Source: Desulfurivibrio alkaliphilus AHT 2 | Lineage (GTDB): Bacteria; Desulfobacterota; Desulfobulbia; Desulfobulbales; Desulfurivibrionaceae | Assembly: GCF_000092205.1 (NCBI RefSeq) | Contig: NC_014216.1 | Span: 682,001-746,000 of the forward strand | DNA length: 64,000 nucleotides | Direction: 5' to 3' | Shown: in pieces, positions 2,232 through 53,825 of the stretch | Numbering within the stretch: the stretch's first letter is position 1 | Layout of the letters: each line of letters starts with the position of its first letter | Position numbers and translations under genes: made by a program | The notes under the pieces: generated by a model | Database searches by the model: none | Told to the model about the DNA's origin: nothing | The model's input: the letters and a program-made list of their open reading frames with translations, nothing else

Positions 2232-2274
2232 GTAACCGTTCACCAGGGGTACTAAACTGTCGGTCTAACGGGCC
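2232..2274 (-). repeat. 43-bp linker element, copy 1
   Basis: Read on the minus strand this begins GGCCCGTTAGACCG and ends CCTGGTGAACGGTTAC. Near-identical copies occur at 12598-12640, 15012-15056, 16580-16621, 16841-16886 and 38672-38714. It abuts the 3' side of the palindromic element at 2275-2382, the same order seen for the other full composites. Confidence 0.8.
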
Positions 2275-2382
2275 GTAAGCGAACAGCCGTGCCGCAGGTT
2301 CGGGCAAGCAGCCAGGCGCAGCGTCCCCCCTGTACGTAAGCCTGGCTGATCGCCCGAAGATGCGGTGCGGCTGTTCGCTTAC
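2275..2382 (-). repeat. 108-bp palindromic element, copy 1
   Basis: Arms GTAAGCGAACAGC and GCTGTTCGCTTAC pair at the ends. The interior follows the family pattern of short stems separated by roughly 3x3 internal loops and a small apical loop. The outer arms differ from the common GTAATCGTTCAGCAG version on both sides in a matched way. The element overlaps the stop codon of acr3 (2379-2381) and lies in the sense direction of that gene. Confidence 0.85.
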
Positions 2383-3485
2383 AGCTGGTAGAAACGGCGC
2401 AGGAAGTAGAGGCTGACATGGACCAGGCCGATGAGCACCGGCACTTCCACCAGCGGGCCGATGACCGTGGCAAAGGCGATGGGCGAACCGATGCCGAACA
2501 CCGCGATGGCCACCGCAATGGCCAACTCGAAATTGTTACCCGAAGCGGTAAAGGCCAGCGAGGCACTGCGGGGGTAATCGGCTCCCAGCCGATGGGCCAT
2601 GAAAAAGCTGAACAAAAACATCAGGGCGAAGTAGGCCGCCAGCGGTATGGCGATCCAGATCACATCCAGCGGGCGCAGCAAGATTTGCTCCCCCTGGGTG
2701 CTGAACATCACCACAATGGTGAAGAGCAACGCCCCCAGGGTGATGGGCGAGATCCAGGGAATGAAGACCTGGTCGTACCACTGCTCCCCCATGGCCCGGG
2801 CCAGCAGCACTCGGCTTAAAACCCCGGCGGTGAAGGGGATGCCAAGGTAAATCATGACACTGACGAAGATATCGCCGATACTCACCGCCACCACCACCCC
2901 TTCCAGGCCGAACAACGGCGGCAGCACGGTGACGAAGATCCAGGCATAGAAACTGAAAGTAACAATCTGGAAAATGCTGTTCAAAGCCACCAGGCCGGCG
3001 GCGTACTCACTGCTGCCCCGGGCCAGTTGGTTCCAGACCAGCACCATGGCAATGCAGCGGGCGATCCCCACCAGGATCAACCCCACCATATATGAACCCC
3101 AGCGAGGATCGGGGCCGAGCACGGCCGGGGCGAGAAAGCCGAAGAAACCCACCGCCAGCACGAACATCAGCAAAGGACCGGCCAGCCAGTTTAAAAACAA
3201 CGACAGGCTCACCACCCGCAAGTCGGCAAACACCCTGGGCATCAGGTGATACTTGACCTTGGCCAGGGGAGGGTACATCATCAGGATCAAGCCGACGGCG
3301 ATCAGCAGGTTGGTATGCTCGCCCACGGTCAGGGATTGATTGAAGCGGCTTACCCCCTCGGGAAAGAGAAAGCCAAGCCCCACCCCCAGAGCCATGGCGC
3401 TGAAGATCCAGAGCGTGAGGTAGCGGTCGAGCAATGAGAGCTTACCGCCCATGCTCGGCTTTAAAGTGGAGGGACATTGAGACAT
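2379..3485 (-). CDS. acr3: Arsenite efflux permease, ACR3 family
   Basis: Inner-membrane arsenite exporter of the ACR3 (bile acid/arsenite/riboflavin) family, about 368 residues with ten hydrophobic segments. Matching sequence includes [15 protein letters not shown] and the [18 protein letters not shown] stretch typical of ACR3 helix 9, which carries family glutamate and asparagine residues. An upstream in-frame extension to 3707 lies inside the arsA gene; I chose the ATG at 3483-3485, which begins [10 protein letters not shown]. It is the last gene of the arsR-C-D-A-acr3 operon, so efflux can be coupled to the ArsA ATPase. Its stop codon TAA lies inside the palindromic element. Confidence 0.92.
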
Positions 3486-5732: not shown

Positions 5733-5760
5733 GTTAACCGTTCACCAGGGGCGCTAACCT
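5733..5760 (-). repeat. Partial 43-bp linker element
   Basis: On the minus strand this reads GTTAGCGCCCCTGGTGAACGGTTAAC directly after the arsC stop codon (5759-5761). It matches the 3' half of the linker element found elsewhere. No palindromic partner is present here. Confidence 0.6.
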
Positions 5761-8218: not shown

Positions 8219-9397
8219 ATGCCAATTAAAGCGCCTTATCGCCGCTTACTGGGCGGCTTGTTGCCGGCCTTTTTACTGTTTCTACTGGTGGCGGTGCTGG
8301 TTTTCAAACCGGGAGCGCCGCTTTCCCCGCCCTCGGCGACCTTATCGCCGGGCCAGCAACCGCAGCCGGTGAAGGTGGCGGAGGTGGAGGCGGGCAGCAG
8401 TATTCGGGAGTTGCGCCTGTCGGGATTGCTCAGGGCCGCGCAAACAACGGAATTGGCCTTTGAGGGCGGCGGCCGCCTGCTGGCGCGGCCGGTTAAGGTG
8501 GGAGATGGTTTTGCCGCCGGCCAGGTGCTGGCAACTCTCGACCCCGAGCCCTGGCAAAATACCGTGGCGGCGGCGCAGGCCCGGCTGGAAGAGTTGGAGG
8601 TCCGCTGGCGGCAGGCCGACAACGAGCGCCGGCGGTTGGCCCGCCTGGCCGAGGCCGGCGCGGTCAGCCAGGATGAGTTCGAGCGGGCCGAGTCGGCCGC
8701 CGCAGCCCTGAAGGCCGCCCGTCGGACGGTCGCCGAAGAGTTGCGGGAGGCTTCCCGGATGCTTGCGGCAACCGAGCTTGCGGCGCCCTTTGCCGGTTCG
8801 GTGGCCGAGGTGCTGGCCGAACCGGGGGAGTACCTGGCGGCGGGCCGGCCGGTGTTGCGTCTTAACGCCGACGGCGCCACCGCTGCCCGGGGCGGGGATG
8901 ACCGGGAAAAGCGGCGGTTGGCCGGCTTTGAGTTAATGGTCGAGGTGCCGGAGTCCCTGCTCAGCCTGCTGCCGCCGGCCCAAAGTGTCGCGGTTGCACT
9001 GCCCCGGGCCGGGCTGGAGTTGCCGGGAACGGTCCGGTCGGTGGCCGATGCCTCGCCGCTGGCGCCGTCTTTGTTCCCGGTCCTGGTGGAAATTCCCGCC
9101 GCGCCGGGGTTGCGGCCGGGGCAGCTGGCCGAAATACGGCTGCAGGTGGAGGAGCAAGGTGCCTGGCTGGTGCCGCCGGCGGCGGTGATCAACCCCGGTG
9201 GCGACCGGCCGGCCCTGATGCGATTGGGGCCGGACGGCGGGGTGGAAAGAGTTACGGTAAAACTCGGGAGCCTGACCGGTGAGCGGTTGGCGGTTTTTGG
9301 CCCCCTGCGCCCCGGTGATCGGGTGCTGGTGTCCGGCTTCAGCACCCTGGCCGCCGGGGCCGTGGTGGAGGCGATTGCGGAGGAGCCAGGGCCGTGA
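8219..9397 (+). CDS. RND efflux periplasmic adaptor (HlyD/AcrA family)
   Basis: 392-residue membrane-fusion protein that links an RND pump to an outer-membrane channel. It has one N-terminal membrane anchor (residues about 10-30), a barrel-sandwich lipoyl half (GGGRLLARPVKVGDGFAAGQVLATLD), a coiled-coil hairpin (about 115-185), the second lipoyl half, and a beta-barrel/membrane-proximal region. There is no lipobox. AAGGA lies 9 bases before the ATG. It overlaps the pump gene by 4 bases, so the two form an operon. No regulator or outer-membrane factor lies next to it. Confidence 0.88.
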   Translation: MPIKAPYRRLLGGLLPAFLLFLLVAVLVFKPGAPLSPPSATLSPGQQPQPVKVAEVEAGSSIRELRLSGLLRAAQTTELAFEGGGRLLARPVKVGDGFAAGQVLATLDPEPWQNTVAAAQARLEELEVRWRQADNERRRLARLAEAGAVSQDEFERAESAAAALKAARRTVAEELREASRMLAATELAAPFAGSVAEVLAEPGEYLAAGRPVLRLNADGATAARGGDDREKRRLAGFELMVEVPESLLSLLPPAQSVAVALPRAGLELPGTVRSVADASPLAPSLFPVLVEIPAAPGLRPGQLAEIRLQVEEQGAWLVPPAAVINPGGDRPALMRLGPDGGVERVTVKLGSLTGERLAVFGPLRPGDRVLVSGFSTLAAGAVVEAIAEEPGP

Positions 9398-12300
9398 AGC
9401 CGGGGGTGCTAGACAAATTGCACTCCCGCCCTCGGATCACCCTGGCGGCGGTGGTGCTGGTCGCCCTTATCGGGATGCTGGCCGGCAGCCAGATGCCCCG
9501 CCAGGAAGACCCCACCCTGCGCGATTACTGGGGCCAGATCCTGGTGGAGTTTCCCGGGGCCGACGCCGAAACCGTGGAGCGGCTGGTCACCGACGTATAT
9601 GAGCAGTACCTGCAGGAGGTGGAGCAGGTCAGCCGGCTGTATTCGACCTCGCGGGCCGAGCTGGCGGTGCTCAACCTAGAGCTGGCCGACGGCACCAGGG
9701 ATATCGAACAGGCCTGGGACGATGTCCGCCTGGCCCTGGAGCGGGCCGAACCCCGCCTGCCCTCTGGTGTTGCCCGCCCCCAGTTGAATCGCGATCTCAA
9801 CGAGCAGGATTCGGTGGTACTGGCGGTGGCGGGCGACAACGACCTTCTGGTGCTGCGGCAAGCGGCCCGGCAGTTGCAACGGCGGCTGCTGCAACTGCCG
9901 GAGGTTGGCAAGGTCCACCTGGTGGGGGATCCCGGGGAACAGATCACCATCACCTGGGATGAGGAAGCGGTGCGGCGGCTGGGGCTGGACGGCCGGCAAC
10001 TGGCGGCCCTGCTGGCCGCCCGCAACCGGGTACAGGGGGGCGGCGACCTGGCCGTGGCCGACAGCCGGCTGATGCTGCGGCCGTTGAGTGAATTTCAGTC
10101 GGTGGCCGAGATTAAGCAAACCCCTTTGCTGCTGCCGTCGGGGGGCACCCTGCCGCTGGCCGAGCTGGCTGAGGTCCGCCACGGCCCCGCCCGGCCGGCG
10201 GAAACCCTGATGCGGCTCGACGGTCGGCCGGTGGTGGGGCTGGGGGTGGTGCCGGTAAGCGGCGGCAATATCATGGCCTTCGGGGAGGCGGTACGGGAGC
10301 TGGTGGCGGCCGGGGCGCCGGAGTTCGCCCCGCTGGAAATCCGGGAGATGGCCTTTCAGCCCGACTGGGTGCGGCTGCGTTTGAGTCAGCTTGCCACTTC
10401 GCTGCTGCTGGGTATTGTAATCGTGGCCACGGTCCTGATTATCGCCCTGGGGCGGCGGCCCGGTCTGGTGGTGGCGGCGGTGGTGCCCATGGTAACCCTG
10501 ACGGCGCTGGGGATTTATGCCCTGGGTGGCGGGGTGCTGCACCAGATATCCATTGCCGCGCTGGTCATCGCGCTGGGGATGCTGGTGGATAATGCCATCG
10601 TCGTAACGGAAAATATTCAGACCCGGCTGGATGAAGGTAAGCCGCCGGCGCTGGCGATGCGGTCGGCGGTGCGGGAAGTGGCCGCCCCTCTGGCCGCGGC
10701 CACCGGCACCACCCTGGCGGCCTTTACCCCGATGCTGATTGCCCAGGGGCCAACCGCCGATTTTACCCGGAGTATCCCCCTGGTGATCATCCTCACCCTG
10801 GGGTTGAGCTATCTCTTTGCCATCCTGGTGACACCGCTGCTGTGTTACTACTTCCTCCGCCCCCGGGCGGTTGCCGGCGGGGCGGGTAGGCAATGGCGGC
10901 GCCTGGCCGATGGGCTGGGGCGGGTGGCGGTGAGCCGGCCCCGGCCGGTGCTGGCGGGTGCGGCCCTGCTGATTCTGGTGATGATTGTGCTCACTCCTTG
11001 GGTGGCCCGGCAGTTTTTCCCGGAGTCCGATCGCAACCAGTTTACGGTGGTAATCAAGCTGCCGGAAGGCAGCCGGCTGGAAGCCACTTCCGCCGCCGCT
11101 GGCCGCCTGGAACGAGAGCTGCTGGCCTTGCCCGAGGTGGCGGCGGTGGCGACTTTCGTTGGGCGCAGCGCCCCGCCTTTTTATTACAACCTGCCCCGCA
11201 TCCCCCGCAGCCCCAACCTGGCCCAGTTGGCCGTCACCGCCGCCGCCCCCGGTTCCCCGGACCAACTGGTCGCCTGGACCCGGGAGTGGGCCCGGCAACA
11301 GTTGCCGGGCACCGAAGTGGTGGTGCGGAAGCTGGAGCAGGGGCCGCCGGTGATCGCTCCCATCGAAATCCGTCTGTTTGGCACCGCCCCGGTGGAAGTA
11401 ACACGGCGTTTGGACACCGCCAACGGGCCGGGTCGCCCCGGGGCCTATGGCCAGCCGGCTCTGGCCGAGCTGGAAAACGCCGCCCTCCAGGTGATGGCCC
11501 AGCTTAACCAGATTCCCGGCGTCAGGGATTTGCGCCATGAGCTGAGCACCGGAGCGCCCACCAAGGTCTTTGCCGTGGACGATGCCGCCGCCGCCCGGCA
11601 CGGCTTGAGCCGCGAGGATGTGGCCCTGTCCCTGTACGGCCTGAGCCGGGGGATTGCCGCCGGTCAGTTCAGGGGCGGGGATGAACCGGTGCCGATTCTG
11701 GTCCGTTCCCCGGAGGGGGAAGATTACCCGGCGGCGGATCTGGAAAATATTTTATTGCTGACGGAAAGATCGGGCCGGCCGGTGCCGGTACCCCTGAGCC
11801 TGGTGGCCACCGCTGAACTGCAGTGGCGTCCGGCGGCCATCGAGCGCCAGGACCGGCGGCGGGTGGCCAAGGTGCTGGCCCAACTGGCCGACGGTACCAC
11901 CTACAGCCAGGTGCTGGATGAGTTGCGACCCCGGCTGGAGAAGCTGACCCTGCCGGAAGGAGTTTACTGGGAGCTGGGCGGCGATCTGGAGGGCACCGGC
12001 GAGGCCAACGCCGCCATGGCCGCCGCCGCTCCCCTGGGGTTGCTGCTGCTGCTGGCCATCCTGCTGTTGCAGTTCAACTCTTTCCGTAAGGTGGGGATTG
12101 TGCTGGTCACCGTGCCCCTGGCCGCCGCCGGGGTGGTGCCGGGGCTGCTGCTGGGGGGGCAGCCTTTCGGCTTTATGTCGTTGCTGGGCACCATCGCCCT
12201 GGTGGGGGTGGTGGTCAACAACGCCATCGTCCTGCTGGCCGTGGCCGAGCAGCGCCAGGCCGCCGGCCTGCCCACCGCCGCGGCCCTGCAGGTGGCGGTG

Positions 12301-12486
12301 AGCCGCCGGGCCCGGCCGATTCTGCTGACCACCGCCACCACCATTGCCGGGATGCTGCCCCTGGCTTTCTCGCCCTCATCCCTGTGGCCGCCGCTGGCCT
12401 GGGCCCTGATTTCCGGCCTGGCCGCTTCCACCATGCTGACCCTGCTGGTGGTGCCGGCTCTATACCTGCTGCTGTGCAAGCGATAG
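9394..12486 (+). CDS. RND-family efflux transporter permease (AcrB-like)
   Basis: 1030-residue inner-membrane pump with twelve predicted helices and two large periplasmic loops, the usual RND length and layout. The TM4 proton-relay segment reads GMLVDNAIVVTENI, so the first of the two AcrB relay aspartates (D407) is kept and the second (D408) is Asn, as in many members. The N-terminus KLHSRPRITLAAVVLVALIG places TM1 directly after a short cytoplasmic stretch. The substrate cannot be read from sequence; RND subfamilies exporting drugs and those exporting lipids or metals are both possible. The palindromic element begins 3 bp after its stop codon. Confidence 0.9.
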   Translation: MKPGVLDKLHSRPRITLAAVVLVALIGMLAGSQMPRQEDPTLRDYWGQILVEFPGADAETVERLVTDVYEQYLQEVEQVSRLYSTSRAELAVLNLELADGTRDIEQAWDDVRLALERAEPRLPSGVARPQLNRDLNEQDSVVLAVAGDNDLLVLRQAARQLQRRLLQLPEVGKVHLVGDPGEQITITWDEEAVRRLGLDGRQLAALLAARNRVQGGGDLAVADSRLMLRPLSEFQSVAEIKQTPLLLPSGGTLPLAELAEVRHGPARPAETLMRLDGRPVVGLGVVPVSGGNIMAFGEAVRELVAAGAPEFAPLEIREMAFQPDWVRLRLSQLATSLLLGIVIVATVLIIALGRRPGLVVAAVVPMVTLTALGIYALGGGVLHQISIAALVIALGMLVDNAIVVTENIQTRLDEGKPPALAMRSAVREVAAPLAAATGTTLAAFTPMLIAQGPTADFTRSIPLVIILTLGLSYLFAILVTPLLCYYFLRPRAVAGGAGRQWRRLADGLGRVAVSRPRPVLAGAALLILVMIVLTPWVARQFFPESDRNQFTVVIKLPEGSRLEATSAAAGRLERELLALPEVAAVATFVGRSAPPFYYNLPRIPRSPNLAQLAVTAAAPGSPDQLVAWTREWARQQLPGTEVVVRKLEQGPPVIAPIEIRLFGTAPVEVTRRLDTANGPGRPGAYGQPALAELENAALQVMAQLNQIPGVRDLRHELSTGAPTKVFAVDDAAAARHGLSREDVALSLYGLSRGIAAGQFRGGDEPVPILVRSPEGEDYPAADLENILLLTERSGRPVPVPLSLVATAELQWRPAAIERQDRRRVAKVLAQLADGTTYSQVLDELRPRLEKLTLPEGVYWELGGDLEGTGEANAAMAAAAPLGLLLLLAILLLQFNSFRKVGIVLVTVPLAAAGVVPGLLLGGQPFGFMSLLGTIALVGVVVNNAIVLLAVAEQRQAAGLPTAAALQVAVSRRARPILLTTATTIAGMLPLAFSPSSLWPPLAWALISGLAASTMLTLLVVPALYLLLCKR

Positions 12487-12489
12487 CCG

Positions 12490-12597
12490 GTAATCGTTCA
12501 GCAGCACCGCATCTTCGGGCGATCAGCCAGGCTTACGTACCGGGGGTACGCTGCGCCTGGCTGCTTGCCCGAACCTGCGGCACTGCTGAACGATTAC
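12490..12597 (+). repeat. 108-bp palindromic element, copy 2
   Basis: Best exemplar of the family. Outer arms GTAATCGTTCAGCAG and CTGCTGAACGATTAC are perfectly complementary. Inside, stems of 4, 6, 9 and 6 bp are separated by internal loops of about 3x3 nt, closing on a GGG loop. It starts 3 bp after the RND pump stop codon, in sense orientation. Confidence 0.9.
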
Positions 12598-12640
12598 CGC
12601 CCGTTAAACAGTCAGGTTATCCCCCTTGGTGAACGGTTAC
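12598..12640 (+). repeat. 43-bp linker element, copy 2
   Basis: Begins CGCCCGTTAAACAG and ends TTGGTGAACGGTTAC, directly following palindromic copy 2. The next bases to 12671 resemble an isolated palindrome arm (GGCTGTTCGGTTAC), and the stop codon of the JAMM gene (12667-12669) falls in that arm. Confidence 0.75.
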
Positions 12641-14886: not shown

Positions 14887-14991
14887 GCTGTTCCTCTGGT
14901 TTCCGGTGATCTATAAAATAAATGGTGTTTTTTTATCTGGCCGACGCAGCAGGAATATGCCCAAGGCCTTTGGGGTTGTCAAGTGTTCCAT

Positions 14992-15056
14992 CGGCACGGC
15001 TGTTCGCTTACGGCCCGTTATGCCGGCAGGTTAGTACCCCTGGTGAGAACGCTTAC
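14992..15056 (+). repeat. Partial palindrome arm followed by 43-bp linker element
   Basis: The isolated right arm (GCACGGCTGTTCGCTTAC, 14994-15011) runs straight into GGCCCGTTATGCCGGCAGG and the rest of the linker, ending GCTTAC at 15056. Its orientation is plus, opposite to both flanking genes. The lpxL stop codon is the adjacent triplet. Confidence 0.7.
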
Positions 15057-16579: not shown

Positions 16580-16621
16580 GTAACCGTTCACCAGAGTACT
16601 AACCTGCCGGTCTAACGGGCC
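16580..16621 (-). repeat. 43-bp linker element, copy 4
   Basis: The plus strand begins GTAACCGTTCACCAGAG and ends CTAACGGGCC, joining palindromic copy 3. Its outer end, extended to AATATTCGTAACCGTTCA (16573-16590), is repeated inverted at 16718-16735, so the whole composite is flanked by 18-bp inverted ends. Confidence 0.8.
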
Positions 16622-16728
16622 GTAACCGTTCAGCAGTGCCGCAGGTTTGGTCTTGCAGCCAGGCGCAGCGTACCCCTGTACGTAAGCCTGGCTGCTCGCC
16701 CGAAGATGCGGTGCTGCTGAACGGTTAC
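16622..16728 (-). repeat. 107-bp palindromic element, copy 3
   Basis: Arms GTAACCGTTCAGCAG and CTGCTGAACGGTTAC: the T-to-C change relative to copy 2 is matched by A-to-G on the other arm. It lies between the alpha/beta hydrolase and the PrcB-like gene in the sense of both. This copy is not next to a stop codon. Confidence 0.88.
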
Positions 16729-16820: not shown

Positions 16821-16840
16821 AACCTGTCGCAAGATTGCTA

Positions 16841-16886
16841 CCCGTTAAACCCGCAGGTCAGTACTCCTGGTGACGCTTACGGTTAC
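16841..16886 (+). repeat. 43-bp linker element, copy 5
   Basis: Begins CCCGTTAAACCCGCAGG and ends GACGCTTACGGTTAC. The hydrolase stop codon (16883-16885) is the TAA of the terminal GGTTAC on the opposite strand. Orientation is opposite to the gene. Confidence 0.7.
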
Positions 16887-18298
16887 AGCGGGGCGTCGGG
16901 CAGCAGCCGGTGTTCCCCGTGGAGGAAATAGCGGCCATGGCTGCTTTCAGAGCGACTGACGGAGAAGAGCAGCAGTGAAGGTGCTTCAGCCAGCGCGGCG
17001 GTATCATGCCCGACCAGTTCGACCCCCGCCAGGTCGAGGCGGCTGCCGGATGCCACCAGGGCGGTTTCGCCTTCCACCCGTAAACCGGTGGCCTTGACCG
17101 CTGAATTGGTTACCTGCATGGCAATACCGGTGCTGGTCAGTCGGCTTTGCTCGATGGTGACCTGGGAATCCCGGATGGTCAGCGATGCGGCCTCAACCCG
17201 GCGTAACCGGACATTGCGGCAGCCGCTGATGATCAGCCGATCATAGCGGCCGCTGAAGATCAGGCCATGCTGGTCCTGGCAACTGCCCACCCGCTCGGCC
17301 TGGCTTGCGGTGTTTTCTGCAACACCGGGCCATGGTTTTGCCTTGGCGGCCGGGGTAGGGGCGGTAAGGGCCTGTTGCAGGGCGCTCCGGAACAGCTCCG
17401 GCTGTTCCCGCATGGGCACGTGGCCGGCCTCGGGAATAACCTGCAGTTGGGCCTTGGGCAGCAGGGTTTCCAGCAGCAGGCCGGTGCGCAGGGGGGTAAC
17501 ATGATCTTCGGCGCCCCAGATGATGAAGGCCGGGGTTGCCAACCCCCGCAGGTCGCGGTTGAAATTCTCCTCCGCCACGGCCAGGGCGGCGATTTTGGCG
17601 GGGTCGCCGCCAAGCAGCCTGGCCCGCAGGGTGTCGTTGTTGAGCACCTGGTTAATATCCAGGGGCAGGTCCGGTAAACCGGCGATGATCCCGCTCAGCC
17701 AGTTGTCGAGCCGGCTCAGCGGGGCGGCGGGCAGGCCGGGCAGGCGTTGCTGTAAATCCGGCTCCAGCAGTTCCTGGGTAATCACCTTTCGGTGCAGCAC
17801 CCCGGCCACATTCGCCAGCACCAGTCGTTTAACCTGTTGCGGCCAGTCGGCGGCAAAGCGCAGGGCCACGGTGCCGCCCATGGAATGCCCGACCACCAGC
17901 ATGGGACCGCTGCTGAAGGATTCCGCCAACCAGTTGAGGTAAGCCGCGTAGTTCTGCGGCGAGTAAAGGGCGTTCAGCTTGTCTGAGCGGCCAAAGCCGG
18001 GCAGGTCAACCGCCAGCACGTGGTACTCGACCGCCAGTTCCGGGAGCAGGTCGTGCCAGATGCCCGAGGCCTGCTCCCCCAGGCCGTGCACCAGCAGCAG
18101 GGTTGGGGAGTTACCCCGGCCGGCCTCCAGCAGGTAAGCCTGGCCGCCGAAAATCGGCTCTTCGAGCCGGTGCTCCTTGATCGTCATGGCCTCGGGTCCC
18201 TCGGCCTCGGGTTTCATATCGGCTAAGGCCGGAGTGGTGAGCGCAACCAGCCCCATCACCGCCAGTACCCTGAAGATCATCGCCAACCATCGCTGCAT
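16883..18298 (-). CDS. Secreted alpha/beta hydrolase with C-terminal beta-helix-like domain
   Basis: 471 residues. The signal peptide (1-26, cleaved after ALA) is followed by an alpha/beta hydrolase of about 270 residues: oxyanion strand LLLVHGLGE, nucleophile elbow GHSMGG, acid in WGAEDHVTP, catalytic His in EAGHVPM. After about residue 330 a second region has short regularly spaced hydrophobic rungs (LIISGCRNVRLRRVEAASLTI onward), resembling a right-handed parallel beta-helix. This fusion is unusual. The 3' end, including the stop codon, abuts a repeat. The next gene upstream on the minus strand encodes an outer-membrane protease-like protein, so an envelope role is plausible. Confidence 0.82.
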   Translation of the reverse strand: MQRWLAMIFRVLAVMGLVALTTPALADMKPEAEGPEAMTIKEHRLEEPIFGGQAYLLEAGRGNSPTLLLVHGLGEQASGIWHDLLPELAVEYHVLAVDLPGFGRSDKLNALYSPQNYAAYLNWLAESFSSGPMLVVGHSMGGTVALRFAADWPQQVKRLVLANVAGVLHRKVITQELLEPDLQQRLPGLPAAPLSRLDNWLSGIIAGLPDLPLDINQVLNNDTLRARLLGGDPAKIAALAVAEENFNRDLRGLATPAFIIWGAEDHVTPLRTGLLLETLLPKAQLQVIPEAGHVPMREQPELFRSALQQALTAPTPAAKAKPWPGVAENTASQAERVGSCQDQHGLIFSGRYDRLIISGCRNVRLRRVEAASLTIRDSQVTIEQSRLTSTGIAMQVTNSAVKATGLRVEGETALVASGSRLDLAGVELVGHDTAALAEAPSLLLFSVSRSESSHGRYFLHGEHRLLPDAPL

Positions 18299-18341
18299 AA
18301 AACAAATCCCTATGTTGGTTTTTTTAAAAGTCCGCCAAGAC

Positions 18342-18450
18342 GTAAGCGGTCACGGGGTGTCCCACCTTGCGGCAAGCAGACCAGCGCCGCGTACCTCAGT
18401 ACGCAAGCCGGGCTGATCGCCGCAAGGTGGGGTGCCCGGTTTAACGGGCC
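18342..18450 (-). repeat. Variant palindromic element (type 2) with linker fragment
   Basis: Starts GTAAGCGGTCACGGGG and has inner arms CCACCTTGCGGC and GCCGCAAGGTGG plus a CGTAC/GTACG tip like type 1. The right outer arm is missing and is replaced by GGTTTAACGGGCC, a fragment of the linker element, which joins palindromic copy 4. Confidence 0.7.
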
Positions 18451-18558
18451 GTAATCGTTCAGCAGTGCCGCAGGTTCGGGCAAGCAGCCAGGCGCAGCGT
18501 ACCCCCGGTACGTAAGCTTGGCTGATCGCCCGAAGATGCGGTGCTGCTGAACGATTAC
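18451..18558 (-). repeat. 108-bp palindromic element, copy 4
   Basis: Perfect outer arms GTAATCGTTCAGCAG and CTGCTGAACGATTAC. One base pair separates it from the stop codon of the 18560-21535 gene, and it is in the sense orientation of that gene. It stands in tandem with the type 2 variant. Confidence 0.88.
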
Positions 18559-18559
18559 G

Positions 18560-21535
18560 TTAAAATTGGTGGCCCAGGGCCAGATATAGCATGGTCCGGT
18601 CTTCCCGGGGGCGGGCGGAATCCAGCCGCTGGGCCAGCCCCAGCCGCATATCCAGATGAAGCAGGTGCCCCAGCACCAGGTTCAGTTTGTATTCGGTGCC
18701 CACCGAAGATTTGATCCGGTTGTCGCTCTCCCAGGAGCCGTCCCAGGCGGCGCCGGCCTCAGCGAACAGGGTAAGATGACTGCGGTCCAGAAAGAGGGGG
18801 AAAACGGACGGTCCGGCTTCATGATAGATCAGCGGGAAGCGGTATTCCAGGGTGGTGCGCACGATGCGGTCGCCGCGTTGCACCGCCTGGGGGTAACCGC
18901 GCAGGGGAAAACCGCCGCCGCTCTCTCCCAGCAGCGCCTCGGGGGGCATGAAGCCGCCCAGTTGAAAGCGCCTTTGCAGCAGCCGATCTCCTTCCGCCAA
19001 ACCTCCTTTGAGCCACCAGGCCAGCACGTGGCGCCGCAGGAAAGGCACGCGCGTAAAGACCCGGGTATCCAGCACCAGCTCGTCAATGTTGAAATCCCCC
19101 CAGGAGTCGGTGAAATGGTTCCACTGGAGGGCCGCCAGCAGGCCTCTTTCCGGCGAGATTGCCAGCCCCGGCTGCTCGCGGTTGTCGAAGCTGAGGCCCA
19201 CCACCGTGCCCCGGAGCCGGCCCTGGGCCGGGGCCTCTTCGGCCGCCGGCCAGCCGCTTAAAGCCTCCAGCCGCTGTTCGCGCACCCCGAGCCGGCCGAC
19301 CAGGCCCCAGCGGAGCCGCAACAGGGGAACCAGCAGCGAGGCCTGCAGGTTGCGGCGCCGCTCCCAGTAGCTGGGCAGCGAGCGGTAGCCTTCCTCGTCG
19401 GCTGGCGGGGCCCACAGGTAGCCGTGTTTGGCGGCGAAATCGCTGGCGTGCAGTTCCAGTACCGGGAAAAACCAGTGATTCTGGTAAGTGGCGGCCCAGG
19501 CCCAGCGGTTGCTGGCCGAGCCGTACAGGGCCGTGCCTTGCAGGGAATGGCGTTGCAATGGGTCGGCAGCGTACACCGACAAGCCGTAATTGCTGCCTTC
19601 CTCGTCCACCGCAAAGGCGGGCAGCCAGGCCCGGGGCAACAGGGTGGAGCCGGCCAGGTAGCGGCGGCGGGAAAGTTCGGCCGGGTGGTCTTCTTCAGGC
19701 CGGTGCCGAACTGGCGCGGTTATCCGGTTGCTTTCGCTGGGGTCCGCGGCCGCTTGCGGCAGGGCCGGGGCGGTGGGCTGGGGTGGGGGTACCGCAATCG
19801 CGGGGTACTCCTCCAGCAGCATCAGGTCGTAACCCCTGGCCGAATAATCGGCAAAGACCAGGCGGCCGCTTTGCGGGCATAGGGCCGGTTCAAAGGCGCC
19901 GCCCACCACGTTGGTTACCTGCTCAAGGTCGCCGGAGGCCGGTTGCAGGCGGTAAATATTGTGAATGCCGTTGCGGTCGTAGGTGAAGTAGAGGTGATCA
20001 CCATCCCGGCTCCAGACCGGCCAGGCCAGGGTGGCGCCGGCAACTGCCAGTAAGCTTGCCGTTTCTCCGCTGTCGGCGGCAATCACTTCCAGGCCCGGTC
20101 GGCCCTGGCGCCAGGCCACCACCGCCAGGGAGCGGCCGTCGGGGGACCAGCGGGGCCGGCCGTAAATCACCGGGTCGGTTTCGTTGGGCCGCAAGGGTTG
20201 CAACTCGCCGCTGTCCGGGTTCACCAGCATCAGGGCGGTGGTGCCTTCCCCCTCGCGGACGGCGACCAGCAGGTGGTCCCGGGGGTGAAAATCCGGGTCG
20301 CGCAGGCGGGCGCCGGTGGTCAGCCGTTTAGTTTCGCCTTTGGCCAGATTGTAGAGGTAAAGGTCGCTGTACAGTTCATAGGAGCGAACCCGCTCCCAGC
20401 GGGAAAAGGCCAGCCACCGATCATCGGGGGAAAAGCTCAGGCCGCCGGTGCCCAGGGCCTTGGTCAGCTCACGATCCTTGCCGTCGGCCAGGTTCAGCAG
20501 GCGGACGGCAGGGTAGGCCCGGGCGCCGCTTTCGGTGTAGGCCAGCCAGCGGCCATCGTTGGAAAAGCGGGGGGCGCCGATCCGGTAACCGCGTCGGGTA
20601 AGTTGTTGCCCCCTGGTCTCGCCCTGCTCGGCTACCTGCTGCTGCAGGGCGGAGGCCTGCTGCGCCACCGTTTGCTTCCATTCCCGCCACAAAGAGCCGG
20701 GGCGTTCGCCGATGGTTTGCCCAAAAGAGGCGTTGAGGCGGAAGGGCAGGAGGCGGCCGGCATAATCTTGGGTCTGCTCGTAAAGTCCGCCCTCGCCATG
20801 CTTGCCGGCAATATAGTCGGTGAACTCGGCCCCGAAGACGTAGCGGTTTTTGCCCCCCGGCCAACTGGCGTGAAAACCCTGCATCTGGGCCAGGGTGGGG
20901 AACTGCTCTGCCAGCGCCGCCATGCGGACAATCATGGTAAAGTAGCTGCCGCCGGTGCGGCCGTAACCGGTGATCCTGGTCTCCTCGTAGGTGGCCAGCC
21001 CTTCCACCTGCCACTTGGGGGAAAACCAGTTGGGAAAACTCCAGGGCGAAAGAATGCGCCCAAAGGTACCGCGCACCAGCCGGTTGGGGCCCCGGACCTG
21101 GTCCAGGTGGACGATATGGGCATACTCATGGGCAAAGAGCAGGTGCAGCCAGTCACGATAATTGGCCAGCTCTTCCCCCGGGGCGGCGGGGCGCAGCAGC
21201 AGCACCACCCGGTTGTAGGGAAAGGAGGAGGCCAGGGCGTTGGACAAGTCCATATGATCGGCAAGCACCACCTGGGTGCGGCCCCAGGGCGTCCAGTCGA
21301 AACGGCCGGTAAGTTCCTGGTGCACCTGCTCGGCAATTTGCGCCGTATGCCGGGCCTGCACTTCCAGGTGGCGGGGGTAGTGAATGGCGAAATTTTCCGT
21401 GCGCAGGGTGTACCAGCGATAATGGGAAGGATAGGGGGCAAAGGCTTCCCCCGGCGGCGGGCAGCACAGCAAAGCCAGCACGGCGAGCAGGCCGGTGCTG
21501 AAGAAGGCCAGTAAGCGTCGGCGGGGCGGCAGCAT
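18560..21535 (-). CDS. Outer-membrane protein: gluzincin-like protease domain, PD40/TolB-like propeller and C-terminal barrel
   Basis: 991 residues. After a signal segment (about 8-31) comes a peptidase-like domain with HEYAH (H136, E137, H140) and a downstream WQVEGLATYEE (E178), the ligand set of a gluzincin zinc protease. Residues about 310-600 contain repeated PRFSNDGRWLAY / SFSPDDRWLAF / RWSPDGRSLAV blades typical of PD40/TolB-like propellers. The last 300 residues alternate aromatic and polar strands, contain GFPLRGYPQ, and end in F, as in BamA/surface-antigen barrels. The combination suggests a surface- or periplasm-facing protease in the outer membrane. The ribosome site AGGAG is 9 bases before the ATG. 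Confidence 0.8.
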   Translation of the reverse strand: MLPPRRRLLAFFSTGLLAVLALLCCPPPGEAFAPYPSHYRWYTLRTENFAIHYPRHLEVQARHTAQIAEQVHQELTGRFDWTPWGRTQVVLADHMDLSNALASSFPYNRVVLLLRPAAPGEELANYRDWLHLLFAHEYAHIVHLDQVRGPNRLVRGTFGRILSPWSFPNWFSPKWQVEGLATYEETRITGYGRTGGSYFTMIVRMAALAEQFPTLAQMQGFHASWPGGKNRYVFGAEFTDYIAGKHGEGGLYEQTQDYAGRLLPFRLNASFGQTIGERPGSLWREWKQTVAQQASALQQQVAEQGETRGQQLTRRGYRIGAPRFSNDGRWLAYTESGARAYPAVRLLNLADGKDRELTKALGTGGLSFSPDDRWLAFSRWERVRSYELYSDLYLYNLAKGETKRLTTGARLRDPDFHPRDHLLVAVREGEGTTALMLVNPDSGELQPLRPNETDPVIYGRPRWSPDGRSLAVVAWRQGRPGLEVIAADSGETASLLAVAGATLAWPVWSRDGDHLYFTYDRNGIHNIYRLQPASGDLEQVTNVVGGAFEPALCPQSGRLVFADYSARGYDLMLLEEYPAIAVPPPQPTAPALPQAAADPSESNRITAPVRHRPEEDHPAELSRRRYLAGSTLLPRAWLPAFAVDEEGSNYGLSVYAADPLQRHSLQGTALYGSASNRWAWAATYQNHWFFPVLELHASDFAAKHGYLWAPPADEEGYRSLPSYWERRRNLQASLLVPLLRLRWGLVGRLGVREQRLEALSGWPAAEEAPAQGRLRGTVVGLSFDNREQPGLAISPERGLLAALQWNHFTDSWGDFNIDELVLDTRVFTRVPFLRRHVLAWWLKGGLAEGDRLLQRRFQLGGFMPPEALLGESGGGFPLRGYPQAVQRGDRIVRTTLEYRFPLIYHEAGPSVFPLFLDRSHLTLFAEAGAAWDGSWESDNRIKSSVGTEYKLNLVLGHLLHLDMRLGLAQRLDSARPREDRTMLYLALGHQF

Positions 21536-36385: not shown

Positions 36386-37306
36386 ATGCCTTCTGCTGAG
36401 CGCTCGGTGGTTGAACTGCCCGCCGGGGCCCGGATCGGGGAGCTCAGAGTGGTGCTCATCGACCGGTTGCGCCGGGCCGGGATCGAAGAGGCCGCCATTG
36501 AGGCCGATCTGCTGCTGGGTTGGGTACTGAATTGTGATCGGGCCGGACTGGTGCTGGCCGCCGAGCAGCCCTTGGCCGAGCCGTTACGGCAGCGGCTGCA
36601 GGCCGCCCTGAAGCGCCGGGAAAGCCGTGAACCGCTGGCCTATATCATGGGGGAGTGGGAGTTCTGGTCGCTGCCTTTTGCCGTGGGGCCGGCAGTATTG
36701 ATTCCCCGGCCGGAGACCGAACTGCTGGTGGAACAGGCCCTGGCCTTTGTCCGCCAGCTGCAGCGGCCGCCCGGCGGCCGTTACCCTTGGCGGATTCTCG
36801 ACCTTGGCACCGGCAGTGGTATTCTGGCGGTGGTGCTGGCCCGGGAAATCGCTTCCGCCCAAGTGGTGGCGCTGGATCGCTCACCCGCCGCCCTGGCTAT
36901 GGCCCGGGCCAACGCCCGCCGGCACGGGGTGGCGGAAAAGATCACTTTTGTCGGCAGCGACTGGTTGTCGGCGCTGGCGGCGCGTCCCGCTTTCGATCTG
37001 GTGGTGGCCAACCCCCCCTACGTGTGCCGCTCTGCCATGTTGACCCTGCAGCCGGAAGTGCGCGAGCATGAACCGCACACGGCCCTGGATGGCGGCCGGC
37101 AGGGACTGGATGACATCAAAATCATCTGCCGCGATTTGCCGGCGGTGCTGCGGCCCGATGGGCTTCTGCTGCTGGAAATCGGGTGGGATCAAAAAACGGC
37201 GGCAGCCGAGCTTTTCAACCGTAATCCCGCCTACCGGCAAACGGAAATCATTAATGATCTTGCTGGGTTGCCGCGGGTGCTGCGGTGCCGTAAAGAGGAG
37301 TGCTGA
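36386..37306 (+). CDS. prmC: Release factor glutamine methyltransferase
   Basis: SAM-dependent N5-glutamine methyltransferase acting on release factors. 306 residues: an N-terminal helical substrate-binding domain and a Rossmann domain with [11 protein letters not shown] and the catalytic NPPY. It lies 14 bp after prfA, and its stop codon overlaps the murA start. Confidence 0.95.
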
Positions 37307-38562
37307 TGGATAAAATTATTATCGAAGGCGGCCACCCTTTGCAGGGGGAAATCGTGATCAGCGGGGCCAAAAATGCCGCTTTGCCGCTGATCTGCGCCAC
37401 TCTGCTGGCCCCTGGTCCCCATGTGCTGGAAAATGTTCCCGACCTGCGTGATACCCGCACCATGCTGGCCCTGCTGGAAGCCCTTGGCGCTTCCTGGCAG
37501 CGGGAGGGGACTACCCTGACCATTGATACCGCCGGTCTGCACAGTTATGAAGCCTCCTACGATCTGGTCAAGACCATGCGGGCCTCGGTGCTGGTGCTGG
37601 GGCCGCTGCTGGCCAGAATGGGAAAGGCCCGGGTCTCGCTGCCCGGTGGCTGTGCCATCGGAGCCCGGCCCATCAACTTTCATCTGCAGGGTTTCCAGCA
37701 GCTTGGGGTGCGGCATCAACTTGATCAGGGTTATGTCGAGGCGGAGGTGGACGGCCGTTTGCGTGGCAACACCGTCTGTTTCGATATCCCTTCGGTGACC
37801 GCCACGGAAAATATCCTGATGGGGGCGGTACTGGCCAAAGGGGAAACGGTGATCAAAAACGCCGCCCGGGAGCCGGAGATCGGTAACCTGGTGGATATGC
37901 TCAACGGCATGGGGGCCAAAATCAAAGGCCGGGGCAGCGATACCCTGCAGATCGAAGGGGTCACCCGGCTCCGGCCGGCCCGGATCAGCATTGTACCCGA
38001 TCGCATTGAAACCGGCACTTTCCTGATTGCCGTGGGGGCCACCGGCGGTGAGCTGACCTTGAGCAATTGCGACCCCTCCCTGCTGCCCTCGCTTTATGAA
38101 AAGCTGCGGGCCGCCGGGGTGGAGGTGCGGGAAGAGCAGGACCGGTTGCATGTTGCCCGCCGCGGTCCCTTGCGGGCGGTGGATGTAAAAACCATGCCTT
38201 ACCCCGGTTTTCCCACCGATCTGCAGGCGCAGATCATGGCCCTGATGTGCCTTAGCAACGGCCTGAGCCTGATCACCGAAACCATTTTTGAAAATCGCTT
38301 CATGCATGTGGCGGAGCTGCAACGGATGGGGGCCGATATCCGCATAGACGGCCACAGCGCCATTGTCAGCGGCACCGGCAAGCTCCGTGGGGCGCCGGTG
38401 ATGGCCACCGATCTGCGGGCCAGTGCATCGCTGGTAATTGCCGGCCTGGCCGCCGAGGGGATTACCCAGATCTCCCGGGTCTACCACCTGGACCGGGGTT
38501 ACGATGACCTGGTAGGCAAACTGAGCCGAGTAGGGGCGGTCATCCACCGGGAACGGGAATAG
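37306..38562 (+). CDS. murA: UDP-N-acetylglucosamine 1-carboxyvinyltransferase
   Basis: First committed step of peptidoglycan synthesis. 418 residues with the N-terminal [11 protein letters not shown] block, the active-site loop around [12 protein letters not shown] (the Cys target of fosfomycin is present) and the C-terminal [10 protein letters not shown]. The ATG at 37306 shares its A with the prmC stop, with GAGGAG 5 bases upstream. The palindromic element begins 2 bp after the stop. Confidence 0.96.
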
Positions 38563-38564
38563 AC

Positions 38565-38671
38565 GTAATCGCTCAGCAGCACCGCATCTTCGGGCGATCA
38601 GACAAGCTTACGTACAGGGGTACGCTGCGCCTGTCTGCTTGCCCGAACCTGCGGCACTGCTGAACGATTAC
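38565..38671 (+). repeat. 107-bp palindromic element, copy 5
   Basis: Arms GTAATCGCTCAGCAG and CTGCTGAACGATTAC (one mismatch). It follows the murA stop by 2 bp in sense. The inner arm has CAGACAAGC against GCCTGTCTG, so the C-to-A change at the fourth base is compensated on the other side. Confidence 0.88.
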
Positions 38672-38714
38672 GGCCCGTTAAACCGGTGAGTTAGTACCCC
38701 TGGTGAACGGTTAC
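38672..38714 (+). repeat. 43-bp linker element, copy 6
   Basis: Begins GGCCCGTTAAACCGG and ends CCTGGTGAACGGTTAC, directly after palindromic copy 5. Together they form a full composite unit of 150 bp between convergent murA and zraS. Confidence 0.8.
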
Positions 38715-47983: not shown

Positions 47984-48018
47984 TGGTTTTCGGGTTAAGA
48001 TAGGCTGCTTAACGTTTA

Positions 48019-48060
48019 CGGGCCATTATATAAGCAGTTATTGGCCTTGGTGAACGGTAT
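48019..48060 (+). repeat. Degenerate linker-like element
   Basis: GGGCCATTATATAAGCAG then TTGGTGAACGGTAT resembles the 43-bp linker but has diverged in the middle. It lies upstream of pheA and has no palindrome next to it. Confidence 0.4.
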
Positions 48061-51324: not shown

Positions 51325-52158
51325 ATGGCCGGCTTTGAATTATCCGCCATAATCTTTGCCTTCAGCCTGACCCTGCTGGCCGGGCTTTCCACCGCCATCG
51401 GTGGCGTGGTGAGTATGTTTGTCAGGCCCCACAACACCGTGGGGCTTTCTCTGGGGTTGGGTTTTTCCGCCGGGGTGATGATCTATGTTTCCCTGGTGGA
51501 GCTGCTGCCCGAGGCCATGGAATCATTTTCCCTGGTGCATGGTGATGAGTGGGGCTATGCGCTGGCCACGGGTGCTTTTTTTGCCGGTATTGCCGTCGCC
51601 GCTCTGGTGGATCTACTGATCCCCGGAGATGTAAATCCGCACGAGTACCGGGCGGCGTCGGAGTTCAGCGCCACGGCGGATATGCATGCCGATCGGGCCC
51701 GCTCCCTGAAGCGCACCGGGATGTTCACCGCCCTGGCCGTAGCCCTGCATAATTTCCCCGAAGGTTTTGCCACCTTCAGCGTGGCCCTGCTTGATCCCGC
51801 CCTGGGAATTCCCATCGCCATCGCCATTGCCATCCACAATATTCCCGAAGGGGTGGCGGTGGCTCTGCCGATCTACCATGGCAGCGGCAGCCGGGGGAAA
51901 GGCTTTGTAGGCTCTCTGCTGTCCGGTTTGGCTCAGCCCTTGGGGGCGGTGGTGGGGTTCCTGCTGCTGGCCCCCTTTTTGGGAGAGGGCAGCCTGGGGT
52001 TAATCTTTGCCATGGTGGCCGGGATCATGGTGTATATTTCCTTTGACGAACTCTTTCCCGCCGCCCGCCTGTACGGCAACTCCCACACCCCGATCATCGG
52101 CCTGCTCTCCGGCATGCTGGTGATGGCGCTCAGCCTGGTACTATTTGAATTTTTTTAA
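51325..52158 (+). CDS. zupT: ZIP-family metal transporter (ZupT-like)
   Basis: 277 residues with eight predicted helices. The metal-binding motifs HNFPEGFATF and HNIPEGVAVAL in helices 4 and 5 are intact, and the His/Asp loop between helices 3 and 4 is short. Such carriers import zinc or iron. It lies 12 bp after the FKBP gene. The palindromic element begins 2 bp past its stop codon. Confidence 0.9.
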   Translation: MAGFELSAIIFAFSLTLLAGLSTAIGGVVSMFVRPHNTVGLSLGLGFSAGVMIYVSLVELLPEAMESFSLVHGDEWGYALATGAFFAGIAVAALVDLLIPGDVNPHEYRAASEFSATADMHADRARSLKRTGMFTALAVALHNFPEGFATFSVALLDPALGIPIAIAIAIHNIPEGVAVALPIYHGSGSRGKGFVGSLLSGLAQPLGAVVGFLLLAPFLGEGSLGLIFAMVAGIMVYISFDELFPAARLYGNSHTPIIGLLSGMLVMALSLVLFEFF

Positions 52159-52160
52159 TC

Positions 52161-52268
52161 GTAATCGTCCAGCAGCACCGCATCTTCGGGCGATCAGCCA
52201 AGCTTGCGTACCTGGGGTACGCGGCGCTTGGCTGCTTGCCCGAATCTGCGGCACTGCTGAACGATTAC
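52161..52268 (+). repeat. 108-bp palindromic element, copy 6
   Basis: Arms GTAATCGTCCAGCAG and CTGCTGAACGATTAC with one mismatch. Inner arms CAGCCAAGC and GCTTGGCTG vary together relative to the CAGCCAGGC/GCCTGGCTG of copy 2. It is 2 bp after the zupT stop, in sense. No linker follows, only GGGGTCTGTTAAACC. Confidence 0.88.
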
Positions 52269-53791: not shown

Positions 53792-53825
53792 GTAAGCGGT
53801 CATGGGGTGCCCCGTGACCGCTTAC
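53792..53825. repeat. Short type 2 palindrome (arms only)
   Basis: GTAAGCGGTCATGGGG and CCCCGTGACCGCTTAC with a TG centre. The left arm matches the outer arm of the type 2 element at 18342, the right arm is its complement, and the central part is absent. It supplies the last codons (RSRGTP) and TGA stop of the pump gene. Confidence 0.75.

Follow-up and report, generated by a model that had tools for sequence, protein, structure and literature searches.

A palindromic repeat family at stop codons in Desulfurivibrio alkaliphilus and its order, probably an IS66-type MITE with its conserved fold opposite to the upstream mRNA

Results

Copies of the element in the window

The window analysed here is the 64,000-nucleotide stretch comprising bases 682001-746000 of the 3,097,763-base single-contig genome of D. 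alkaliphilus AHT 2 (the own genome, G000). Genes were called with our own simple codon-usage caller, and gene starts are therefore approximate. Six 108-bp hairpins, which a preliminary description had placed at 2275, 12490, 16622, 18451, 38565 and 52161, were all found at these positions, three on the plus strand (12490, 38565 and 52161) and three on the minus strand (2275, 16622 and 18451). The length of 108 bp holds for the hairpin but not for the complete unit, which measures 151 bp and consists, in four of the six copies, of the hairpin and a 43-bp tail; the copies at 18451 and 52161 are hairpins without the tail. The last bases of the tail, TGAACGGTTAC, repeat the terminal motif GTAAnCGTTCA for a third time and in inverted form. 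The features are as follows:

2232..2382, minus strand: full-length copy, hairpin 2275-2382, tail 2232-2274; its GTAA is the stop codon of the gene 2379-3452 (minus)
12490..12640, plus strand: full-length copy, hairpin 12490-12597, tail 12598-12640; 3 nt past the stop of the gene 9394-12486 (plus)
about 16580..16728, minus strand: full-length copy, hairpin 16622-16728, tail 16580-16621; 154 nt past the stop of the gene 16883-18280 (minus), with a remnant in between
18451..18558, minus strand: hairpin-only copy, 1 nt past the stop of the gene 18560-21535 (minus); adjoins a second palindrome, 18334-18435
38565..38714, plus strand: full-length copy, hairpin 38565-38671, tail 38672-38714; 2 nt past the stop of the gene 37300-38562 (plus)
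52161..52268, plus strand: hairpin-only copy, 2 nt past the stop of the gene 51325-52158 (plus)
14990..15055, plus strand: remnant, end of the second arm and tail (model positions 87-150)
16824..16880, plus strand: remnant, arm end and tail; adjoins the stop of the gene 16883-18280
48005..48058, plus strand: remnant, arm end and tail
18334..18435, minus strand: related palindrome with a different outer stem (GTAAGCGGTCACGGGG...) and much of the core in common (GGCGATCAGCCCGGCTTGCGTAC)

The gene calls agree with the earlier observation that all six copies point in the direction of the upstream gene and that five of them sit at its stop codon. The distances from the stop codon to the head of the element are −4 (2275), +3 (12490), +1 (18451), +2 (38565) and +2 (52161), the exception being +154 (16622). 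The flanks differ from copy to copy: the duplications around 2232..2382 (CTACCAGC/CTATCAGC) and 38565..38714 (GAATAGAC/GAATAACC) are imperfect, the copy 16580..16728 has AATATT on either flank, and the flanks of 12490..12640 (GATAGCCG/GACAGCTG) contain no exact duplication. Downstream of 52161..52268, where the tail would be, there is a separate terminator-like stem (AACCAACGGGTTGTTGGTTTTTTT).

Palindromes with ends like GTAAGCGGTCACGGGG form a second family, which shares much of the core with the element and differs in the outer stem; it occurs in the window at 18334-18435 and 53792-53825 and elsewhere in the genome at G000:C1:260118 and 647595. Tail-only look-alikes were seen on the plus strand at 5734 (TTAACCGTTCACCAGGGGCGCTAACC) and 8170 (GTAACAGTTCACCTGGAATACTAACC); they are possibly remnants or a tail-derived mini-element. 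A different palindrome, GGGGACAGTTTT..AAAACTGTCCCC, takes the place of the apical loop in three further copies (G000:C1:2540613, 1317683 and 1318466; loci L124 and L121), which looks like the insertion of a second small element at the hairpin tip.

Copy number and distribution in the order

A scan of the 3.10-Mb genome with a 22-base pattern from the first arm (up to three mismatches) gave 168 sites, 87 on the plus and 81 on the minus strand, whereas the reversed pattern used as a control gave none; the family is thus far beyond chance. The scan counts a few copies twice, where both arms match, and misses diverged copies, and the number of copies is about 160. The copy 12490..12640 served as the query of the genome search. 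The 113 hairpin-bearing copies that were read came from 131 profile matches in 94 blocks; they comprise copies listed by pattern or query and their neighbours and are neither a random sample nor the full set.

The covariance model of the element matched 33 of 38 genomes at E ≤ 1e-4, the own genome included, the matches being weaker and less certain in genomes with only one or two of them. Several relatives carry tens of copies (up to 81 candidates were scored per genome), and an exact pattern found at least 120 copies in 119 contig stretches of named genomes of the order. At least one match of that scan (L220) looks like a chance hit and drops out because it lies inside a gene. Copies behind one gene in different MAGs (L210, L213 and L229; L179 and L211; L173 and L235) have met with different fates: collapse or decay in some, and in others retention of the hairpin with altered pairs (ATAAACG/CGTTTAT, CGGTAAA/TTTACCG).

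Excluded identities

The consensus behind the hairpin, GGCCCGTTAAACC (24 copies), contains no conserved T run, and the element was not assigned to the intrinsic terminators. Searching the window against Rfam yielded only two tRNAs above threshold, and the element itself gave five weak matches to microRNA hairpins, all below threshold. REPs are described as 20-40 bp long with an unpaired GTAG or CGTC tag (PMC3733652, the part consulted), whereas the present element has 108-151 bp and its GTAA is paired inside the stem; it was rejected as a REP element. The copies are not associated with a RAYT gene either. Of the two Y1_Tnp genes of the own genome, one has a copy about 3 kb away, and no copy was seen in the 9 kb that surround the other. 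Y1_Tnp was found in 34 of the 38 genomes, including all five without a match to the element (G011, G032, G034, G035 and G036), and is absent from G018, G024, G025 and G033, which have 20, 6, 1 and 6 matches, respectively.

Mobility and the relation to IS66

The assumption that the element spread as a unit is supported by its end repeats, flanking duplications, a filled versus unfilled site and its copy number. The element begins with GTAAnCGTTCA and ends with TGAACGnTTAC. Exact flanking direct repeats of 7-10 bp are present in 45 of the 72 full-length copies having both ends and flanks (21 of 8 bp, 12 of 9 bp, 6 of 7 bp and 6 of 10 bp), the longer ones including chance bases because the comparison tolerated offsets of up to 2 bases. 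In two hairpin-only copies (1178147 and 2596328), 8-bp flanking repeats were recognized by eye. At site 535674, the element is present in the own genome and absent from the congeners G001, G002 and G003, though the sequences do not align to the exact base and a different palindrome occupies the place in G002. None of the three sites tried gave a base-exact empty site; at the other two, the relatives carry other sequence.

A target duplication of 8 bp is typical of IS66. Among 11 IS66 loci of the order, six have a facing pair of GTAA-type ends (the scan pattern itself required such ends), and in three of these six an exact 8-bp duplication was seen by eye (L277, ACTGCAAT; L285, ATAGAGCA; L286, ATTTTATT). 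The ends of these elements, starting with a GTAA(n)(n)G(n)(n)A-like sequence, and their duplications resemble those of the palindromic element, which is why we call it an IS66-type MITE; both features support a putative IS66-type mechanism. The own genome contains a single IS66 transposase locus with the ends GTAAGCGCTCAGCAAACCCC and GTAAGCGCTCAATGAACCCC. This IS66, the only one whose ends were folded, differs in having no such hairpin and no clear duplication, and only about 11-14 end bases are common to it and the element; no long homology between the element and an IS66 was found. Since IS66 transposase genes occur in 10 of the 38 genomes, as against 33 with the element model, and the IS66 of the own genome lacks the hairpin, both IS66 as the mobilizer and a need of the hairpin for transposition remain putative. 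The two ORFs that flank the own IS66 locus (L034:638-1702 and L034:11276-11965), sugar-nucleotide genes as judged by eye, end in near-identical protein sequence, a diverged duplication.

Position and orientation relative to genes

The sense orientation after genes, described earlier for the window, proved to be a strong bias in the genome and not a rule. Four of the 113 hairpin copies lie inside a called gene, 79 behind a gene on the same strand and two have no called upstream gene, whereas the upstream gene is antisense for 28 (16 tandem and 12 divergent). Arranged by both neighbours, the 109 copies outside genes are 54 tandem sense, 16 tandem antisense, 24 convergent and 12 divergent, with one neighbour missing for three. 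In 66 of the 79 sense-gene copies the head falls between −4 and +8 nt relative to the stop codon; 23 of these 66 are at −4, where the element's own GTAA supplies the stop codon. When uniform insertion into the non-coding positions of the same blocks was simulated, 4.5% of insertions fell between −6 and +10 nt from a sense stop, as against 66 of 112 real copies. The distances to the downstream gene are broad.

The relatives show the same pattern. Among the matches listed, 88 copies outside genes have called genes on both flanks: 44 are tandem sense, 18 tandem antisense, 12 convergent and 14 divergent. For the 56 copies with a sense gene upstream, the head falls between −6 and +8 in 52. Not all of these copies are independent, because some represent one site in two MAGs. 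A subset of 80 of the 119 stretches gave a sense to antisense ratio of 33:9 with the more stable fold on the opposite strand in 56 of 57 hairpins; for all 119 stretches, these figures are 44:18 and 83 of 85.

Of the 45 copies with an exact duplication, 23 are located at a sense stop and 22 elsewhere. After removal of the element and one duplication in silico, a sense gene could be traced for 24 copies, and in 16 of these its original stop codon overlapped the duplicated target; six copies belong to an antisense gene and the gene end was untraceable for 15. A strict target motif was rejected, the targets being AT-rich 8-mers without a clear motif. Of the 37 copies with a missing or degenerate tail, 35 have a sense gene upstream, 32 of these with the head between −4 and +8; of the 71 full-length copies, 43 have one, 15 are antisense to the upstream gene and 12 lie between divergent genes. 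Single-copy stem changes are more frequent in the degenerate-tail copies (31 in 3605 sites) than in full-length ones (16 in 6855), and the former are therefore probably older. As the stop-codon bias is already present in the exact-duplication copies and stronger in the old ones, targeting and selective loss probably both act.

Conservation of the hairpin

Substitutions on one arm had been reported to be matched on the other, which is indeed seen in the pairs GTAAtCG/CGaTTAC, GTAAcCG/CGgTTAC and GTAAgCG/CGcTTAC. That the structure itself is kept was borne out by 55 distinct copies, in which 18 of the 45 pairs changed on both sides, compared with 6.0 in shuffled alignments; none of 500 shuffles reached 18 pairs and the slid controls gave 6 at most. 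Pair 5/104 occurs as all four Watson-Crick types. At one orthologous site in two genomes (L166 and L226; the upstream proteins are 95.5% identical), pair 5 is C-G in one and A-T in the other, compensated in place, and other bases of the second arm differ uncompensated. With pair 5/104 left out, the full-length copies have 16 single-copy changes in 6855 stem sites versus 32 in 3083 tail sites. The internal loops are conserved and recur in the relatives, several of which have loops that are G/A-rich on the strand opposite to the mRNA, with GCAGAUGC facing GCAGAUGC; this suggests tandem G.A pairs.

The strand that folds

The preliminary description proposed that the element acts in RNA at the 3' ends of mRNAs. 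If the hairpin worked in the upstream mRNA by stabilizing the transcript, slowing the terminating ribosome or marking the 3' end, the sense direction and the position right at the stop codon, both in this genome and in other genera, the retention of degenerate-tail copies almost only at sense stops and the precedents of REP and YPAL would fit well. Folding of the mRNA strand still yields about −72 kcal/mol, and 14 of the 31 single-copy stem changes of the degenerate-tail copies fall in pairs that are changed on both sides and can still pair (A.C counted as pairing). The type of stem changes and the folding stability nevertheless point to the other strand. An A.C on one strand is a G.U on the other. 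On the strand that in sense copies is equivalent to the upstream mRNA, one-sided stem changes in 112 copies comprised 102 A.C, only 10 G.U and 117 other mismatches, next to 177 paired double changes. The strand opposite to the mRNA folds more stably in 105 of the 112 copies with RNA parameters and in 107 of 112 with DNA parameters, as well as in 83 of 85 distinct hairpins of the relatives (RNA parameters, among the matches listed). Since both parameter sets favour the same strand, they do not distinguish RNA from DNA as the folded molecule. The maintained fold is thus probably not that of the upstream mRNA, and the proposed action in the mRNA was not upheld. With no conserved T run behind the hairpin, and with full-length copies also in antisense and divergent positions, we regard a function in the upstream mRNA as rather unlikely.

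The asymmetry was also apparent in other counts. Counted by kind of change, there were 26 A.C, 7 G.U and 38 others; among changes private to one copy, there were 13, 6 and 21, respectively, and the asymmetry was weak there. The ratio of A.C to G.U was 57:2 in sense-at-stop copies and 45:8 in the others. In mirror alignments, 96.0% of the cells were paired on the opposite strand versus 91.9% on the mRNA strand, and one-sided changes that still pair amounted to 56 cells in 21 pairs in the opposite-strand alignment and to 4 cells in 3 pairs in the mRNA-sense alignment. The outer stem of the opposite-strand consensus has 22 bp, including two U.G wobbles that correspond to C.A mismatches on the mRNA strand. 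The second palindrome family (GTAAGCGGTCAC...) offers only two complete copies in the sampled DNA, too few to serve as a replicate; both fold better on the opposite strand and neither follows a sense stop.

Replication strand was rejected as the cause of the asymmetry, the ratio being alike in both directions (50:5 and 52:5, the origin assumed to be near base 1). A general mutation bias was rejected as well: C>T plus A>G changes outnumbered G>A plus T>C changes in the tail (130 vs 103) and in the loops (57 vs 39), which is, if anything, the reverse. Relative to the tail, the rates in all stems were about 0.28 for A.C, about 0.27 for transversion mismatches and 0.03 for G.U; in the inner stems they were about 0.40, 0.21 and 0.02 (74, 43 and 3 cells), A.C being the commoner class there. 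Over all stems, A.C and transversions are thus held down alike and G.U far more, and the signal is partly a special shortage of G.U on the mRNA strand.

This missing class is also what a neutral parasite that survives only at gene ends might show, its arms being kept alike by template switching or DNA-hairpin repair and not by selection; the strand bias would then stem from hairpins forming on the non-template strand with strong G.T repair there. The commonness of paired double changes (177 cells) and the weak asymmetry of the private changes are in line with this, whereas the conserved internal loops, recurrent in relatives, would be erased by such correction, the degenerate-tail copies are concentrated in one context, and the bias does not differ between the two replication directions. 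Taken together, we judge neutral survival of this kind to be unlikely.

A folded antisense RNA would account jointly for where the copies lie, which way they point and which strand keeps the fold: transcription entering the gene from its 3' side would be stopped or processed at the hairpin before reaching the stop codon, which would shield the gene. However, the next 8 bases on that strand show no more than a moderate content of U (A in 60 of 184 target positions of the sense-at-stop copies), and copies in other contexts share the asymmetry (45 to 8). We know of no antisense transcript at such copies, and as an explanation of the family as a whole this shielding appears distinctly unlikely.

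The attC sites of integrons, bottom-strand hairpins behind stop codons that are moved by the integron integrase, resemble the element in folded strand and place. An integron integrase was found above the cut-off in 22 of the 38 genomes, including the own one, and in none of 14 controls. The own integrase is encoded at G000:C1:2830311-2831261 (L339:8311-9261) and scores well above the family cut-off; near it, the attC core pattern (RYYYAAC/GTTRRRY) finds one candidate, L339:14854-14969, which is not this element. An attC-like nature is nevertheless contradicted by the 8-bp duplications. Moreover, the 20 kb around the integrase contain one copy, about 8 kb off and missed by the core pattern, and the copies are spread over the genome with no array beside the integrase. 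We consider this identity highly improbable.

Discussion

The explanation that we find probable is that the element constitutes a non-autonomous IS66-type MITE family of this order, located mostly at stop codons and with a conserved fold opposite to the upstream mRNA. An IS66-family DDE transposase would move the elements, AT-rich 8-bp sites at gene 3' ends would be the preferred targets, and copies in other places or orientations would be lost sooner. The wobble pattern suggests that the maintained fold is that of the strand complementary to the upstream mRNA, either as RNA or as single-stranded DNA. The fold is perhaps needed for the element's own propagation, a role we put first while holding it to be short of probable. 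If it is needed there as a single strand, the asymmetry should be independent of the context of the copy, as was seen. A role as a folded antisense RNA at the gene end comes next within the same explanation and is a doubtful one.

Its nearest precedents are YPAL, ERIC and REP. YPAL is said, in work attributed to De Gregorio (2006), to lie just downstream of stop codons. Compared by description, the element shares with YPAL its palindromic nature, stop adjacency, co-orientation and target duplications. In the portion of the source consulted (PMC2229807), YPAL (RU-2) is described as a hairpin-forming intergenic repeat of Yersinia of about 168 bp that has target duplications and is co-expressed with the upstream gene, with a proposed effect on RNA stability. 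The same source gives duplications of 3 to 26 bp and internal inverted repeats for YPAL, whereas the element has mostly 8-bp duplications and terminal GTAA repeats. The Chunjie MITE of Geobacter uraniireducens is likewise a high-copy intergenic MITE, and the relevant section of a review of prokaryotic MITEs (PMC10969869) lists 38 copies with repeats and duplications and 57 partial ones; its length of 178-235 bp differs from the 151 bp of the element. It sits in an operon without disturbing it, to go by the title of the original paper. REP and BIME elements are also palindromes after genes, whereas ours is a 108-bp hairpin with GTAA paired in the stem and does not track Y1_Tnp. Ribosome stalling is ascribed to REPs that lie within 15 nt of a stop codon (PMC12306157, in a passage citing earlier work), and the RepRanger paper counts short palindromes (up to 32 nt by default) in Desulfotalea psychrophila.

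The preliminary description knew of no family with this layout, and none was found in the literature searched, in which subscription journals are poorly covered. Its kind is not new: with repeats at its ends and 8-bp duplications it qualifies as a MITE, and palindromic elements of this class that lie near gene ends, such as YPAL, are known. A search of the same literature for IS66 MITEs, GTAA-type IS66 ends, palindromic repeats of Desulfobulb* and antisense-strand palindromic MITEs gave nothing relevant, and a word search of the available text of the review PMC10969869 met with neither IS66 nor stop codons. We would suggest, tentatively, that the novelty lies in an order-wide mobile element that is aimed at stop codons with a fixed polarity and has a GA-loop-rich fold antisense to the host gene, serving as a guarding antisense RNA or as a single-stranded DNA form in propagation. 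To our knowledge, neither an antisense RNA guarding gene ends nor a strand-specific single-stranded DNA form of a DDE-type element has been described for MITEs, REPs or IS66.

With about 160 copies in D. alkaliphilus and tens in several of its relatives, the family represents a natural experiment. It makes testable how a DDE-type element ends up on stop codons with one polarity, what effect such insertions have on the expression of the host genes, and on which of its two strands a bacterial palindromic repeat is functional. The comparison of G.U and A.C between the strands is applicable to REP, ERIC and YPAL as well.
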